Virus record (IMG/VR): IMGVR_UViG_3300021962_000673
Location: 1 to 23,449 of that record
Source: a virus
Strand: one strand, 5' to 3'
DNA: 23,449 nucleotides
Part shown: piece after piece, positions 2,442-22,216 of the stretch
Layout: each line of letters starts with the position of its first letter
Position numbering within the stretch: the first letter of the stretch is position 1
Translations under genes and position numbers: made by a program
The notes under the pieces: model-generated
Databases searched by the model: none
Told to the model about the DNA's origin: nothing
Seen by the model: only the letters and a program-made list of their open reading frames with translations

Positions 2442-2795
2442 ATGATAGCATATTACATCACAGGCAGTAATAATGTAGCGATAAGAACAAATGAAATCAA
2501 CTCAGGTTCAGTTCTTAGTTTGAGATTACAAAACATGCTTACTTTGGTAAACACTTCCTCATCAATAAGTAACTATTCATACGATGATTATGAATCACTT
2601 TTACAATTTACTGCAAGTATTGTAAGTGCTAGTGTTGGTGATGAGTATCGTGCTAATATAGTTTCAGGAAGTACAAATGTATGGAATGGAAGTATTCAGG
2701 TATATGCATCAGAATCATTAGTATCCGCTTACACAAACCAAAACACTCAGTATAAATCTAATGTGACTGAGAACGAATATATCATAATGAACTAA
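2442..2795 (+). CDS. Small virion-module protein of unknown function
   Basis: The 117-residue product starts MIAYYITGSNNVAIRTNEI and is rich in Ser, Thr, Asn and Tyr with alternating hydrophobic residues. This suggests a compact beta protein, with segments such as YESLLQFTASIVSASVGDEYRANIVSGS and NGSIQVYAS. It is the first gene after a strong terminator and ends one base before the portal start (TAA-t-ATG), so the two are co-translated. I have an impression of similar short beta proteins next to structural genes in Bacteroidota phages but no function is established. Its place between tube and portal would suit a tail-assembly or connector role. No frameshift signal marking a tail assembly chaperone was found. 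Confidence 0.7.
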   Translation: MIAYYITGSNNVAIRTNEINSGSVLSLRLQNMLTLVNTSSSISNYSYDDYESLLQFTASIVSASVGDEYRANIVSGSTNVWNGSIQVYASESLVSAYTNQNTQYKSNVTENEYIIMN

Positions 2796-2796
2796 T

Positions 2797-4080
2797 ATGG
2801 AAAAGAAGTATCAGAGTTTTTCAGTTGTAAATCTTACTCAACAAGACATTCCTGTTATTACCGAAGATGTAAAGACAAGGTATAATTGGGTGCCGTTTGG
2901 TATTCAAACACAAGATGATTTTTACCCTATTGTAACACAGGCCCTTCAATCATCTACAACCAATGCAGCGTGTATTGAGGGTATAGCAGACCTTATATTT
3001 GGTAAAGGGTTATACACAAAGAATACGGCATTTGAAACACAACTATCACGCCTACTACCACAAGAGGAAACAAAAAGAGTAATCTTTGACCTTAAATTAT
3101 ATGGTAATGGTGCATATCAGGTATATTGGAACGATGAACATACAAAGATAATTAAGTTCTATCACATACCAGTTCAAACCCTAAGAGCGGAAAAACTATA
3201 TGGTGACCCTAAAATACAAAATTATTTTTATTGTACTGATTGGTATGATTTAAAAGCACAAAGAGCTAAGATACAAATTCCTGCATTTGGAACATCGAAT
3301 GAAAAGAGAGAGATTCTATGGATAAAAAATTACACGCCAGGTAAATACTATTACTCAACACCGGATTGGATTTCAGCATTACAATTTTCTTATGTTGAAG
3401 CAGAGTTAAGTAACTTACATATAAACAACATTGAGAATGGTTTCTTACCGGCTGTAATGATTAATATGAACAATGGAGTTCCTGCACCGGAAGAAAGAGA
3501 TACTATTGAAGACCTGATTGAACGTAAGTTTACCGGCACAAGAAATGCAGGTCGCTTTATGATTTCATTTAATGATGATGCGGCTAACAAACCAACGATT
3601 GATACAATCAACATAGATAATCTACATGAAAAATACCAATATGTTGCCGATTACGCACAAGACCGTATATTAGTAGCACATCGTATTACTTCTCCATTAT
3701 TGTTTGGTATAAGAACTGCTAATAATGGATTCTCCTCACAATCAGAAGAGATGAAGACGGCGTTTTCTATCTTACAAACGATGACAGTAAATCCATTCCA
3801 AAACTTAGTAATCAACGCTATAACCGATGCACTATTAGAAGGTGGATATGATGATACACAATTATATTTTGAGCAACTAACACCATTAGCAATTCTTTCT
3901 ACAACTGCGGAAGAAACCGGACAAAGTATAGAAGAAGTAGAAGATGATATAAACGAACAGGCTGAAAACCCTGAGGTGATAGAAGAATCAACCGAAAATG
4001 TAGAACAATTAGAGGATGATGAACCAATCAGACCTTTCCAATATGGTTTTAGTAGAGCTTACGAAACTTATAAAGATTAA
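2797..4080 (+). CDS. Portal protein
   Basis: The 427-residue product has the length and layout of a portal subunit of the dodecameric ring through which DNA enters and leaves the capsid. An early segment (QALQSSTTNAACIEGIADLIFGKGLY) is the conserved region seen in many portals. It is followed by a beta-rich stem/wing region (YGNGAYQVYWNDEHTKII, FYHIPVQTLRAEK) and a helical stretch including NNIENGFLPAVMINMNNG. The next stretch, AHRITSPLLFGIRTANNGFSSQSEEM, is typical of the crown-proximal region in PBSX/HK97-type portals. The C-terminal ~60 residues are acidic and likely disordered. It is coupled to the preceding gene by a one-base gap and followed after 5 nt by a connector gene. Confidence 0.86.
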   Translation: MEKKYQSFSVVNLTQQDIPVITEDVKTRYNWVPFGIQTQDDFYPIVTQALQSSTTNAACIEGIADLIFGKGLYTKNTAFETQLSRLLPQEETKRVIFDLKLYGNGAYQVYWNDEHTKIIKFYHIPVQTLRAEKLYGDPKIQNYFYCTDWYDLKAQRAKIQIPAFGTSNEKREILWIKNYTPGKYYYSTPDWISALQFSYVEAELSNLHINNIENGFLPAVMINMNNGVPAPEERDTIEDLIERKFTGTRNAGRFMISFNDDAANKPTIDTINIDNLHEKYQYVADYAQDRILVAHRITSPLLFGIRTANNGFSSQSEEMKTAFSILQTMTVNPFQNLVINAITDALLEGGYDDTQLYFEQLTPLAILSTTAEETGQSIEEVEDDINEQAENPEVIEESTENVEQLEDDEPIRPFQYGFSRAYETYKD

Positions 4081-8803: not shown

Positions 8804-10573
8804 ATGGCTCAAATAATTCCAATATATATTCCAACCTTTATTAGTGATCAGAACTACAATCCTAATAGAGTGCTACCACGCCTTTATTTTTTTAATGGAA
8901 TGTTGGATTGTGAACCTTATTATATAGAAAGCGGTTCATTAACTAATATAGGAGTAATCAAAGAACAAAATCAATTTCCATATTTTGATCATTATAATGT
9001 TGTTACTGGTAGTTTCCCATCCACAGGTTCTCGTTCTCTACTTTTTTTAAATGAAAACCCTGTATATGGTGCTCAACCAAATGAAAATCTTTATACTGAG
9101 TATTGGTCTACCTATATAGGTCTTTTATATAATCCTAAAACAAGATTATTGAATGCCTCAGCAATCATTCCATTGGCTGAATACTTTAAAATGGAACTTA
9201 ATGATATAGTAGAATTTCGTTCTAACTATTATCATTTAAGAGCGATTAATGATTATAACTTAAAGACAGGTGAATGTAAGATTCAGTTGTTAGGGCCTAT
9301 TATTGATGATACCCTTTCATCTGGTGTATTTGGATGTTCGTTTACATTTGATAGTGCGACAGTAACAACAACTACTTCTACCACTACAACTGCTGCTCCT
9401 ACTACAACCACAACTGCAGGCCCTACTACAACAACTACTACATTAACACCGACTACTACTACGACAAGTACGACTAGTACTACAACTACTGCTGCCCCGA
9501 CAACTACAACAACGACAGCAGCAGGTACTACTACAACTACAACCGCAGTACCAACTACGACAACTACAACGGCTACTCCAACTACAACTACTACGAGTAC
9601 AACTACTAGTACAACGACAAGTACTACTACGAGTACAACAACTACAACTGTTGCACCAACAACTACGACAACAACTGCTGGTACTACGACGACAACTACT
9701 GCGGGGCCTACTACAACTACAACTACTCAAACACAAGTTAATTATTCGGTGGAGTTCTTATCAGTAGCAGGTGGGGGAGGATCATCTTGGAATGGCGGGG
9801 GCGGTGGTGGCGCCGGTGGTCTTTTGAGTGGAAGTATTAATTTAACTCCATCATCATCATTATTTATTGTAGTAGGTGCTGGTGGAGCTGGTTCATCTAT
9901 AACTTCTGGTTCAAGTGGCGGAAATAGTTATATTACTGAATCTGCTGTAACTGTTTCTCTATCATATGGAGGAGGTGGCGGTGGTGGTGGTATTCCACCT
10001 ACATCTGGAATTTATTATGGAGGAGCTAATGGAGGTTCAGGTGGAGGAGCACATAGAGCTACACAATCAGGTTCTGGAATTGTTGGTCAAGGATTTGATG
10101 GAGGTATAGGTATACCTGGTGCTAACACAGTTGCTACTGGTTCAAATGGTGGTGGAGGTGGTGGATCATCACAAAAGGGACAAGATACTTTTATTAGTGG
10201 TATTAATATGTACTCCGGAGCAGGTGGTTCTGGATCAGTATGGTTAAATGGTAATACTTACGCTGGTGGCGGTGGTGGTGGAGGAGAGATATATAATGGA
10301 TTTTCAGCAAGATCTATTGGTGGATTAGGAGGCCCTGGAGGCGGTGGTAAAGGAGCAAGTGGAAACGAAACTAATGCATCTGGAGGTTTGGCAAATTCAG
10401 GAGGTGGTGCTGGTGGTGGAAACTCACGCACTAATTCAATTGCTAATGGTGGTAGCGGTGTTGTCATTGTAAGATACTTTGGAATTCAAAAAGGATTGGG
10501 TGGTATTGTAACTTCATCGGGTGGATATACATATCATACTTTCAATTCATCATCAATATACACAGCTTATTAA
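8804..10573 (+). CDS. Tail adhesin: tail-attachment domain, Thr-rich linker, Gly-rich tip
   Basis: The 589 residues fall into three parts. Residues 1-187 form an attachment domain; WSTYIGLLYNPKTRLLNASA and NDIVEFRSNYYHLRAINDYN look like the C-terminal part of Bacteroidota phage tail proteins, as if split from the gene before it. Residues 188-310 are a linker of T5-T7 blocks separated by AP, AGP, AVP, ATP and S. Residues ~316-565 are a glycine-rich domain with runs of GGGGG separated by short strands, ending GGSGVVIVRYF. The last part, GGYTYHTFNSSSIYTAY, resembles the closing module of glycine-rich phage adhesins. Glycine-rich tips with polyglycine-II packing are known in T-even-like gp38 adhesins, so host surface binding is the likely role. 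Thr tracts are plausible O-glycosylation sites, an inference supported only by the glycosyltransferases downstream. Confidence 0.72.
   Translation: MAQIIPIYIPTFISDQNYNPNRVLPRLYFFNGMLDCEPYYIESGSLTNIGVIKEQNQFPYFDHYNVVTGSFPSTGSRSLLFLNENPVYGAQPNENLYTEYWSTYIGLLYNPKTRLLNASAIIPLAEYFKMELNDIVEFRSNYYHLRAINDYNLKTGECKIQLLGPIIDDTLSSGVFGCSFTFDSATVTTTTSTTTTAAPTTTTTAGPTTTTTTLTPTTTTTSTTSTTTTAAPTTTTTTAAGTTTTTTAVPTTTTTTATPTTTTTSTTTSTTTSTTTSTTTTTVAPTTTTTTAGTTTTTTAGPTTTTTTQTQVNYSVEFLSVAGGGGSSWNGGGGGGAGGLLSGSINLTPSSSLFIVVGAGGAGSSITSGSSGGNSYITESAVTVSLSYGGGGGGGGIPPTSGIYYGGANGGSGGGAHRATQSGSGIVGQGFDGGIGIPGANTVATGSNGGGGGGSSQKGQDTFISGINMYSGAGGSGSVWLNGNTYAGGGGGGGEIYNGFSARSIGGLGGPGGGGKGASGNETNASGGLANSGGGAGGGNSRTNSIANGGSGVVIVRYFGIQKGLGGIVTSSGGYTYHTFNSSSIYTAY
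9365..9727 (+). repeat. ACN-codon low-complexity tract (Thr-rich linker)
   Basis: About 360 nt consist almost only of Thr codons with occasional Ala, Pro, Gly and Ser. ACT, ACA, ACG and ACC are mixed rather than repeated in a fixed order, so protein repeats are much more regular than the DNA. The same kind of tract occurs four more times within the adhesin at 10909. Confidence 0.9.
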
Positions 10574-10908: not shown

Positions 10909-12378
10909 ATGCCAAATATAAATAAACAAATAACATTAACTACTAGAGAAAATTCGGCAGGGCCTTATTTTGATGTTTACTATTCTACTGATTGTACTAA
11001 TTTTACAATTTGTATAGATGGTAGTAATGTTTATTTGCCTACAATTTCATCAACTGTAATTGTGACAGTTCCTGATACCACTATTTGTATAAAATTGGTA
11101 AATAAAAATGCGAATTGTAATGGTAGTTTTTATATAGATTCATTTGGTACTACAACAACTACAACTATTTCACCTACCACAACTATTCCACCTACAACAA
11201 CTACTACGACAGCAGGTGTAACTACAACAACAACATTAAATACACAATGTTATGAGTACACCTATACTGCAATTGCAGGTTGTACAATTTTCTATGTTGA
11301 TTGTAATGGGGTACAACAATCACAATTTGTAGCAGCTGGTCAAACTGTGAATTTAGGATGTATCAGAACCTATGGACAAAGTGGATGTGGGCCGTTTACG
11401 CAAGGAACTCTTTGTGCTACTACGACAACAATAGCACCTACAACTACAACAACAACATTAGGTTGTTACAATTGTGGTAGTGGAGTTGAAGTATTTACAA
11501 CAGGAGCCTTAAATTATGGTTCATACGCAACTGAATCAGTATGTTCAACTTCAAATGAGTGTGGATTATTTGTATATAACGCAATAGATAGACCTAACCG
11601 ATTTAATTTATACGATAATAGTGGATTGATTGGAACATCAGGTTGGGTTGGTTATGCAACTTGGCCTGGACCGTGGGGTGCATCATTAAACGTTTCACCA
11701 AGCGGACAATTTACTTATGATTTTGGTACGACAAGTGGAAGATATGTTTTAGTAGAATATGGACCGGCTGATCCTGAATCACCATCATCTGATACTGCTG
11801 AATGGAGTTTAACTTGTGGAACTTGTCCAACAACAACTACTACTATCGCTCCCACAACAACAACTACAACTGCAGCATTTACTTGTTTCAATTGGACATC
11901 AAATAGATGTAATTCACCTATTGATTGTTTTATTGAATACTATGATTGTAATAATAATTTAGTAAATCAAAGAGTAAATTATCAAGATGGAGTAATAGTA
12001 TGTTCACCAAATGCACCGACTGTAACACAAGGTAATATGAATACCTTTACTCAAGGTTCAGGATGTGGGTATTTACCAACAACTACTACTACTACAACCA
12101 CAATAGCACCTACCACCACAACTACTACTACTTCACTCTTTCAGTATAATGATGGTGGTAGAGGAAATAGTGTAGCAGCTGCTTGTAGTGATGCATCAAA
12201 TATGAGAACTTTTTACTCTAATTGTAGTACACTTACATTTGGAATTGGTTGTACGATATATATTGATACATTCCCTAATCCTTTGACAGGATATACAAAC
12301 ATATTTATAAACGGTGCATGTTGGGATATAAACTCATCAACTGGTGTGATAACAGGATTCTCATCAGAACAATGTTAA
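10909..12378 (+). CDS. Multidomain tail adhesin with four Thr-rich linkers
   Basis: The 489 residues split into five domains: 1-80, 114-169, 186-306, 324-388 and 410-489, separated by Thr linkers at 81-110, 170-184, 307-323 and 391-409. Domains 2 and 4 are cysteine-rich and related: both have a C-x-x-(Y/W)-T opening, an (Y/E)Y-x-D-C-N centre, then V-x-C and T-Q-G-x-x-C. Domain 3 (CYNCGSGVEVF... YVLVEYGPADP) looks like an independent beta domain. Domain 5 ends FSSEQC and resembles the end of the large tail protein (FESC). The arrangement fits a modular host-recognition fibre assembled by domain exchange. It is coupled to the gene before (TAA-t-ATG) and followed 16 nt later by the glycosyltransferase-like gene. 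Individual domain functions are unknown. Confidence 0.7.
   Translation: MPNINKQITLTTRENSAGPYFDVYYSTDCTNFTICIDGSNVYLPTISSTVIVTVPDTTICIKLVNKNANCNGSFYIDSFGTTTTTTISPTTTIPPTTTTTTAGVTTTTTLNTQCYEYTYTAIAGCTIFYVDCNGVQQSQFVAAGQTVNLGCIRTYGQSGCGPFTQGTLCATTTTIAPTTTTTTLGCYNCGSGVEVFTTGALNYGSYATESVCSTSNECGLFVYNAIDRPNRFNLYDNSGLIGTSGWVGYATWPGPWGASLNVSPSGQFTYDFGTTSGRYVLVEYGPADPESPSSDTAEWSLTCGTCPTTTTTIAPTTTTTTAAFTCFNWTSNRCNSPIDCFIEYYDCNNNLVNQRVNYQDGVIVCSPNAPTVTQGNMNTFTQGSGCGYLPTTTTTTTTIAPTTTTTTTSLFQYNDGGRGNSVAAACSDASNMRTFYSNCSTLTFGIGCTIYIDTFPNPLTGYTNIFINGACWDINSSTGVITGFSSEQC
11149..12135 (+). repeat. Four dispersed ACN-codon Thr-linker tracts in the multidomain adhesin
   Basis: Low-complexity tracts at 11149-11238, 11416-11460, 11827-11877 and 12079-12135 encode variants of T(4-8)-IAP/ISP-T(5-7). 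They flank the domains precisely and share short identical stretches such as ACTACAACAACTAC with the 9365-9727 tract. They therefore provide repeated homology at domain borders. Confidence 0.85.
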
Positions 12379-19740: not shown

Positions 19741-19789
19741 ACTGTTGAATGATCTCTACCCAAATGGGTGTTTATATATATCGTACCCT

Positions 19790-19816
19790 AAAACCTCTTA
19801 AAATGGAGGTTTTTTT
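19790..19816 (+). terminator. Intrinsic terminator ending the structural module
   Basis: AAAACCTC (19790-19797) pairs with GAGGTTTT (19806-19813) around an 8-nt loop, with further T residues. It closes the long late transcript on the + strand. Confidence 0.8.
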
Positions 19817-19821
19817 ATGCC

Positions 19822-20705: not shown

Positions 20706-20737
20706 TTTGGAAAATAAAAAAACTTCACTTACATTTG
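20706..20737 (+). promoter_or_regulatory. Canonical Bacteroidota promoter
   Basis: TTTG (20706-20709), a 20-nt spacer and TACATTTG (20730-20737) match the TTTG-N17-23-TAnnTTTG consensus fully. The transcript would start near 20742-20744. No ATG lies between the promoter and the terminator at 20816 other than the one inside the terminator loop. Confidence 0.68.
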
Positions 20738-20741
20738 TATA

Positions 20742-20845
20742 TCTGATTGTTAAAGATAATAAAAACCATCAAATAAAGTTTGCCAACTTTGTTACCATCT
20801 ATTGGTCTTTTTTTCAGAGAGTTTTAATGGTTCTCTCTTTTTTTT
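20742..20845 (+). ncRNA. Candidate small RNA between promoter and terminator
   Basis: About 100 nt lie between a canonical promoter and an intrinsic terminator, with no start codon and no open frame. A small stem (ACCA/TGGT near 20794-20806) can form. The start is estimated from the promoter and the end from the terminator T run. An untranslated leader continuing past the terminator (attenuator) is the alternative. Confidence 0.45.
20816..20845 (+). terminator. Intrinsic terminator
   Basis: AGAGAG (20816-20821) pairs with CTCTCT (20833-20838), followed by an eight-T run (20838-20845). The T run is also the start of the 43-nt repeat element. Confidence 0.65.
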
Positions 20846-20881
20846 AGTGTTTTCTTTAACTAACAGATATATATAAGTGTA
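20839..20881 (+). promoter_or_regulatory. 43-nt promoter-like repeat, copy A
   Basis: This copy matches 21920-21962 at 39 of 43 positions. It shares TTTTTTTAGTGTTTTCT, then AACTAACAGATATATAT and AGT. Both copies follow a terminator and precede a new unit, and both contain a TATATA core. It lacks a TAnnTTTG box, so it would be a different promoter class from the one at 20706. Confidence 0.5.
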
Positions 20882-21210
20882 AACGGCAACTTTAAACTTT
20901 AAACCATAAACTTACTAACACTTCAATTAAGGTAGTCTCACCAACTATCTGAATCCGGAAACTATTAAGGAGATTGATAGACAGTAGAGGTCGTAGTTGA
21001 AATACTACCGGAGTGATACCGATGAGGGAACTGGCCGATAATACTCTATGATGGGGGACTCGTTTCAAGTAGAGAGAGTTTAACTTATCCTATCACCAAC
21101 CTATTTAATTTACGCTACATTGGTAGTATTGTTAAGTGAGTATTGTTGGACTGATAGGATAGGTGGATCTGATTCAAATAAAGACACTGTAAGCAGCTAA
21201 GCAGCTAAGC
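20882..21210 (+). ncRNA. Candidate structured non-coding RNA
   Basis: This ~330-nt stretch without an open frame of useful length is more GC-rich than the AT-rich sequence around it. It has several strong stems. TATCCTATCA (21086-21095) pairs with TGATAGGATA (21152-21161), and the adjoining CCAAC with GTTGG (21145-21149), giving 15 pairs with a 2-nt bulge. CTATC (20946-) with GATAG plus AATC with GATT makes a hairpin of ~9 pairs. GTAGT/ACTAC (20992-21007) and CTCTA/TAGAG (around 21044-21074) form two more. It follows promoter-like repeat A. It does not match group I intron, tRNA, tmRNA or RNase P signatures that I could recognise. Ends are estimates. Confidence 0.5.
21191..21210 (+). repeat. 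8-nt tandem repeat AAGCAGCT
   Basis: AAGCAGCT occurs twice in tandem, followed by AAGC. The AGCT core is self-complementary. It lies at the 3' end of the candidate RNA. Confidence 0.7.
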
Positions 21211-21244
21211 ATTAAATAAAATATATAAGTATATATTTATAGTT

Positions 21245-21379
21245 ATGGAAGAATTAGAAGATATATGGTATGAAGACCTATTTGATATAGGTTTAGATGA
21301 GTATCTGACACAGTTATTTACTGAGTTGGAAAGCCGTATTGATTCTTCTAATGCCAAAAACTTTGAGATAGTAGAATAA
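21245..21379 (+). CDS. 44-residue very acidic small protein
   Basis: The ATG at 21245 follows an AT-rich leader and gives 44 residues, MEELEDIWYEDLFDIGLDEY then a helical tail with LTQLFTELESRIDSS. Fourteen residues are Asp or Glu and only two are Lys or Arg, so it is strongly acidic. Such small acidic phage proteins often bind basic surfaces of host proteins or mimic DNA, but no family is recognised. A TAA is followed by a promoter-like motif and the next gene. Because it is short, translation is probable rather than certain. Confidence 0.5.
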   Translation: MEELEDIWYEDLFDIGLDEYLTQLFTELESRIDSSNAKNFEIVE

Positions 21380-21407: not shown

Positions 21408-21797
21408 ATGAAAAGAGTTTTATTAATGTCTATAACCAATAAGGATGAGTGGTTATCGAAGTTACAAGATTTGAGAGAGATATACAGACCAATTGGTAAG
21501 ATTTTTGTATTTCGTAACCGTATGGATGATGAGGATGATAGGATTTGGATTACATTCAATACTGATTCAGAATACAGATTCATAACAAATGGTGTATTAA
21601 GAGTAAACCGAAATAAAGATACATCCACTCTTTTTACAATAGATGCAGTAAATGCTCTATCAATAAGAGAAAAGGGTGTAATAGATAAAGGATTCGTTCC
21701 AAATTGGAGAGAATACGAAAATTGTTTGATAATAAATAATAGAGAGGGGTTTAATGTAATACCATTGGTGATACATCAAACTTATGAATTAAGATAA
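21408..21797 (+). CDS. Conserved-type phage protein of unknown function
   Basis: The 129-residue product has alternating strands and helices. It opens KRVLLMSITNKDEWLSKLQD, then KIFVFRNRMDDEDDRIWITF, RFITNGVLRVNRNKDTSTLF and a final EYENCLIINNREGFNVIPLV. The order of a short helix, strand pair with an acidic turn, and C-terminal alpha/beta suggests a small single-domain alpha/beta protein. I have the impression of similar proteins in other phages without a known role. It has its own promoter-like sequence and is followed by a strong terminator at 21864. Confidence 0.7.
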   Translation: MKRVLLMSITNKDEWLSKLQDLREIYRPIGKIFVFRNRMDDEDDRIWITFNTDSEYRFITNGVLRVNRNKDTSTLFTIDAVNALSIREKGVIDKGFVPNWREYENCLIINNREGFNVIPLVIHQTYELR

Positions 21798-21863: not shown

Positions 21864-21888
21864 AGGGGGTTTTATACCCCCTTTTTTT
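21864..21888 (+). terminator. Intrinsic terminator
   Basis: GGGGG (21865-21869) pairs with CCCCC (21877-21881) around TTTTATA and is followed by seven T residues. It is a clear rho-independent terminator. Confidence 0.85.
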
Positions 21889-21919
21889 ATGTCAAAAAAA
21901 AAGTTTAGAAATATACCTA

Positions 21920-21962
21920 TTTTTTTAGTGTTTTCTCAAACTAACAGATATATATTAGTATA
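21920..21962 (+). promoter_or_regulatory. 43-nt promoter-like repeat, copy B
   Basis: It is 39/43 identical to copy A and lies 31 nt after the terminator at 21864-21888 and 23 nt before the ATG at 21986. The distance and order (terminator, element, gene) support a promoter. Confidence 0.5.
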
Positions 21963-21985: not shown

Positions 21986-22216
21986 ATGGCAACAAAAAAT
22001 CAAACAAATTATTGGACAGAAAGATTTGAGAACCTACCTAACTATATCGTAGTTGGAAGAGATATGGATGGTATTACCGGATGGACTGTTATACACAAAA
22101 AAGATGAAAAAGAGTGGAATAGCAGCTGTTATCGTATGAGTATAATGAATGGATTGAGTATGAAAAGATGGGAAATGCAAGAGTTAGCCGATAAAATGAA
22201 TAAAGAAAGCAACTAA
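21986..22216 (+). CDS. Small unknown protein
   Basis: The 76-residue product begins MATKNQTNYWTERFENLPNY and continues VVGRDMDGITGWTVIHKKDE and a C-terminal helix with RWEMQELADKMNKESN. One strand-rich core with a helix on each side is likely. Tryptophans are frequent for its size. It is preceded by copy B of the repeat and an A-rich leader with AAAACAACAAAACA, and followed by a GC-rich hairpin. No function is recognised; it may be an early protein. Confidence 0.68.
   Translation: MATKNQTNYWTERFENLPNYIVVGRDMDGITGWTVIHKKDEKEWNSSCYRMSIMNGLSMKRWEMQELADKMNKESN

Follow-up and report, generated by a model that had tools for sequence, protein, structure and literature searches.

A predicted multidomain RNA conserved in related phages with probable Bacteroidota hosts

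Results

Genomic setting of the locus

The DNA analysed here, referred to as the window, is the IMG/VR virus record IMGVR_UViG_3300021962_000673, a stretch of 23,449 bases whose ends are not joined. It encodes a portal protein, a tape-measure protein and a maturation protease, and presumably a capsid-region protein as well. The portal protein is closest, among cultured phages, to those of the Nonlabens phages P12024S/L (35% identity), which makes a host from the Bacteroidota probable; the genes of the window are Bacteroidota-like. Two of the genes (8804-10573 and 10909-12378) share threonine-rich low-complexity repeats, seen at 9427-9723, and their products are putative tail or receptor-binding proteins.

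The locus under study, all features of which lie on the plus strand, begins with an intrinsic terminator at 20816-20845 (AGAGAG/CTCTCT followed by T8), whose loop of 11 exceeds the limit of the terminator scanner; a similar terminator with a changed stem is present in a related phage, G005. Overlapping its end is a promoter-like repeat of 43 bases (20839-20881), 91% identical to a second copy at 21920-21962, which precedes a gene at 21986. A preliminary description had proposed that the adjoining stretch, 20882-21210, is gene-free, more GC-rich than its surroundings and framed by a promoter-like repeat and a small gene. Each of these points was borne out: no sense ORF of at least 50 aa overlaps the stretch, its GC content is 0.36-0.43 against about 0.22-0.33 around it, and the repeat is matched on the other side by a 44-aa ORF (ORF44, 21245-21379). 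A second small gene, ORF129 (129 aa, 21408-21797), follows, and the unit ends in an intrinsic terminator at 21864-21890.

Additional non-coding features were noted nearby. Behind the late genes, an element at 19756-19820 consists of an ACCC/GGGT hairpin, TTTATATATATC and then a terminator-like hairpin; its identity reaches 85% in G005 and 92% over 49 bases in a second relative, G045, exceeding that of the neighbouring genes. At 20707-20845, a TTG-N-TAnnTTTG match precedes an intrinsic terminator by about 100 bases, and the interval holds no ORF; it may encode a small RNA immediately ahead of the main one.

A conserved core in two related phages

A BLASTN search against 44 related phage contigs, taken as whole records, located a copy of the RNA in G005 (IMGVR_UViG_3300043410_001755, 31.6 kb) that is 92% identical over 298 bases (L098 2188-2485). 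A third copy, at 82% identity, was located by a pattern scan with GATACCGATGAGGGAACT in G045 (IMGVR_UViG_3300042485_003650; L104 1353-1597). The known members are therefore three: those of the window, G005 and G045. The three phages are related, and two of the three sequences are close. The conserved core spans 20918-21176 (259 nt; nucleotide identity 92% to G005 and 82% to G045), with similarity to one relative running on to about 21215, so that the span of 20882-21210 proposed at first holds a real core, but a shorter one.

When all shared DNA was compared, most coding alignments with the window showed 67-78% identity in G005 and 67-72% in G045. Among shared stretches longer than 70 bases, the RNA is the most highly conserved, and only short terminator-like elements approach or exceed it; the flank upstream of the RNA has diverged. 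The ends of the G005 contig (L108 1-160 and L098 2949-3109) share a repeat of about 160 bases in which one mismatch was seen, because of which this genome, though classed as linear, is probably complete and either circularly permuted or terminally redundant.

Compensatory changes support a multidomain fold

In the three sequences, the predicted structure comprises nine helices and 59 pairs, with one tentative helix (P7) not counted, and 99.4% of cells are paired. The first domain is a three-way junction in which P1 (20923-20928/20972-20977) encloses P2 (20930-20936/20944-20950) and P3 (20954-20956/20969-20971), with three, two and one double-changed pairs, respectively. The second is closed by the 6-bp P4 (20984-20989/21044-21049; two double-changed pairs), within which lie the invariant hairpin P5 (20993-20997/21004-21008) and P6 (21009-21011/21035-21037; one double change), the latter containing the invariant loop AGUGAUACCGAUGAGGGAACUGG. 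P4 (columns 71-76/131-136 of alignment A4) and P6 were added when the alignment was screened for every helix that all three copies retain. Towards the 3' end, the long hairpin P8 (21086-21100/21145-21161 and 21101-21109/21131-21140) is capped by P9 (21114-21118/21123-21127) and has five double-changed pairs in total, two in its lower and three in its upper part. The stem of 15 pairs with a 2-nt bulge that had been noticed from the window alone (21086-21100/21145-21161) is exact; it recurs when each of the three copies is folded and, in their alignment, carries compensatory changes.

Between these domains, the folds of the three copies contain a tentative hairpin, P7 (GGACUC...GAGUUU, 21056-21061/21076-21081), which is shortened in G045 and has U-A in place of G-U there at one pair. 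P7 was not recovered by RNAalifold on this segment and, because MAFFT misaligns it in G045, it was excluded from the counted structure. In addition, several invariant segments of the RNA are mutually complementary. The segment UGAUGGGG at 21049-21056 can pair with UCCUAUCA (approximately 21088-21095) in the 5' strand of P8, and the pairing or its counterpart is present in all three copies; a mutually exclusive alternative fold is therefore conceivable, and we describe it here as possible.

The single-sequence folding energy lies within the range of shuffled sequences (z -1.08 for 20882-21210 and z -1.29 for 20914-21225). By copy, the z-scores were -1.1 to -1.35 for the window and G045, which is not significant, and -2.55 for G005. 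Folding energy was consequently dropped as standalone evidence, and the structural case depends on comparison. RNAalifold on the three-sequence alignment gave 11 pairs changed on both sides, and against 200 column shuffles, none of which had more than 8 such pairs, the energy z-score was -5.0 and the covariation z-score about +5.1. The final structure without P7 has 14 double-changed pairs compared to a shuffle mean of 4.7, a count reached in 0 of 500 shuffles, while a register-slid control, in which partners were moved by 1-3 columns, yielded 1-2; the structure was chosen knowing the same three sequences, two of them close, for which the shuffles and the slid control correct only partly. Compensatory changes were thus found beyond chance and, since paired letters change together across the copies, we take the fold to be real. 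On this comparative evidence the locus is almost certainly a genuine structured RNA, so far confined to one phage group that probably infects Bacteroidota.

The same data bear on whether the locus might not be an RNA at all, but either a conserved DNA element that serves packaging or replication or a small gene that had been missed. Such a reading could draw on the conservation of the stretch, which is unusual for intergenic DNA in phages, and on an antisense frame that is open in the window and G005. This frame, however, contains stops in G045 and its start is not conserved, and the 14 predicted pairs with compensatory changes, as well as the arrangement of promoter and RNA, also argue for an RNA. 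No frame is open through all three copies. We consider the reading as DNA element or gene very improbable and largely refuted by the covariation.

The RNA matches no known family and is rarely found

A search with Rfam 15 (4227 models) at the gathering threshold gave no match in the window or the homologues, and a permissive search returned only chance-level matches to snoRNA, miRNA and sRNA models. ARAGORN found neither tRNA nor tmRNA in the window. The GOLLD, ROOL and OLE models, which are present in Rfam (PMC12286853), gave no cmscan match at either threshold. Group I and group II introns likewise had no Rfam match, and the RNA sits between complete, unrelated ORFs. As to retrons and DRT systems, no RVT_1 match was found in the records of the window, G005, G045, G046 and G001, some of which are fragments. 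Our literature searches turned up no account of this RNA. The initial judgement that known phage RNAs do not fit thus held up, and the homologues, the covariation and the lack of both an Rfam match and a reading frame uphold the proposal of an undescribed, structured, phage-borne RNA; "large" was a generous term for a core of 259 nt. For the suggested roles in packaging or host manipulation, nothing was found in support.

Further members were sought with R1, a covariance model built from the three copies, which scores 325, 320 and 299 bits on them. R1 found no additional member in 38 phage records, 7 genomes or about 800 Bacteroidota genomes, although the genome sets had no positive control and their empty result is weak. 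BLASTN against GenBank phages and plasmids found none, and neither did an early exact-pattern scan, whose pattern spanned a variable helix. Several candidates were rejected. Pattern matches in genome contigs (0, then 38) were all due to chance as judged by context, and scans with GGACTGATAGGATAGG and GTAGTTGAAATACTAC gave only chance matches beyond the known members. An R1 hit in L158 (E 0.0009) has many broken pairs and matched mainly around the seed word, and matches to the 3' end in G035, G007 and G008 fall within tape-measure-like genes. Because the phages, plasmids and genomes searched gave no further member, the RNA family appears to be rare or undersampled. At the position matching the RNA locus, L003 has 770 bases without a large ORF (2658-3428), which bear no likeness to the RNA by BLAST or R1.

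The RNA probably opens a small transcription unit

We examined the sequences on either side of the RNA. In both G005 and G045, a sigma-A-type match, TTG-N-TAnnTTTG, ends a few bases 5' of the RNA at the same aligned place (the -7 consensus of flavobacterial sigma-A is from PMC9723704). The window copy lacks this promoter, and about 35 bases are absent there; across the window, TTG-TAnnTTTG matches are not enriched (5 versus 5.5 expected by chance). We regard the shared position in both relatives as telling. In the window, each 43-base repeat lies ahead of a transcription unit and is not a TAnnTTTG promoter; it is perhaps recognised by a phage-specific factor.

Downstream, the core is separated from the next start codon by a variable linker of 68 nt in the window (21177-21244), about 87 nt in G005 and 55 nt in G045, and no intrinsic terminator lies between RNA and start codon in any of the three copies. 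ORF44 has a homologue directly 3' of the RNA in G005, while in G045 an unrelated 84-aa ORF takes its place. ORF129, in contrast, is kept in all three, with homologues 3' of the RNA in both relatives (57% and 51% identity; family size 121-129 aa). It had no Pfam or PHROG match, a PDB sequence search yielded nothing credible, and its AlphaFold model (pLDDT 34) was uninformative. A relative of ORF129 also occurs without the RNA in L107. The strong terminator at 21864-21890 closes the unit of RNA, ORF44 and ORF129, and comparable terminators lie behind the ORF129 homologues in G045 and in L107. The locus therefore has a promoter 5', a co-oriented ORF 3' and no terminator between, the promoters being sequence matches only.

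A different non-coding stretch of about 150 bases was noted in L086 (7185-7330), L089 (7264-7480) and L107 (2980-3175). L086 and L089 share 68% identity over it, and the L107 version resembles them weakly. In these related phages the stretch ends in an intrinsic terminator immediately ahead of the start codon of a replication-like gene, which makes it a candidate attenuator leader.

Discussion

Because the RNA opens an operon transcript without a terminator of its own, our best single guess, which we hold tentatively, is that it acts in cis as the leader of a small operon. The transcript would run from the promoter through the 259-nt core, the variable linker, the small ORF and ORF129 to the terminator and, if transcribed from the promoters named above, the RNA would form its 5' part. 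The invariant loop AGUGAUACCGAUGAGGGAACUGG, with the two covarying domains and the long hairpin folded around it, may bind a ligand or protein, and binding would set the output of the downstream small proteins, either via the linker beside the start codon or via transcription. The anatomy common to all three copies favours this reading, with no terminator, a start codon 55-87 nt downstream and a member of the ORF129 family in the same unit, as do the terminator that closes the unit at least in the window and G045 and the sigma-A-type promoter that immediately precedes the RNA in G005 and G045. Since all three phages are related, shared gene order is partly inheritance. Against the leader stand the first downstream ORF, which is not conserved (44 aa in two phages, unrelated and 84 aa in the third), the ORF129 homologue that lacks the RNA in L107, the absence of a conserved expression platform and, in the window, both the missing sigma-A promoter and the chance frequency of TTG-TAnnTTTG matches. 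Moreover, conservation along the entire RNA exceeds that of its supposed target genes, which would equally suit a trans-acting RNA.

A trans-acting phage RNA is in fact nearly as likely as a cis leader, because the first gene is swapped while the RNA itself is exceptionally conserved. Here the core would be cut from the transcript or end at an unrecognised site and act on a host or phage target, either alone or together with a protein of the phage or the host; a ribonucleoprotein, a decoy and an RNA-only complex are examples of the form it might take. Its standing as the most conserved longer stretch common to the relatives, its complex multidomain fold and long invariant loops fit such a role, and its own promoter and upstream terminator set it apart from the late genes. 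The lack of a 3'-end terminator in all three copies and the constant presence of ORF129 behind it speak against this reading.

The RNA directly follows the late-gene terminators and heads a transcription unit that ends in a strong terminator and whose genes vary while the RNA is conserved, an arrangement that also brings to mind processive antitermination in cis. The nascent RNA would modify RNA polymerase, allowing read-through of 21864-21890 and later terminators into the next gene cluster. In mode this would resemble HK022 put, the likeness being a possible action in cis from the beginning of a phage transcription unit; we claim no membership, sequence having been compared through Rfam only. 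Put RNAs are far smaller than the 259-nt core, and read-through would be unnecessary since the second copy of the promoter-like repeat (21920-21962) lies beyond the terminator; we regard antitermination as improbable.

Compared with known systems, the nearest kind is that of phage-borne structured RNAs such as GOLLD and ROOL, which are likewise multi-branched and found by comparative genomics, and the RNA is a member of no tested family. GOLLD often exceeds 800 nt, a ROOL example has 659 nt, and both often lie near tRNA islands (PMC12286853), unlike the 259-nt core, which lies in a window without tRNA and has no cmscan match to either. With riboswitch-like and protein-binding leaders it shares a structured RNA that sits between a promoter and a co-oriented ORF and lacks a terminator, as well as conserved loops, but no known leader family matches and the first downstream gene is not conserved here. 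The likeness to phi29-type packaging RNA is that of a phage-encoded structured RNA, with no cmscan match.

Few structured RNAs are known from phages, mostly without an assigned function, and our searches brought up no report of one from phages of environmental Bacteroidota. Its slower evolution than the shared structural genes suggests that the RNA is likely important to the phage. There is some chance that this phage-specific multidomain RNA with its invariant loop of about 23 nt represents a new regulatory or ribonucleoprotein class in Bacteroidota phages, possibly a bistable one. The three-member model R1 provides a fixed structure, suited to searches of metagenomes and metatranscriptomes and to mutational tests.
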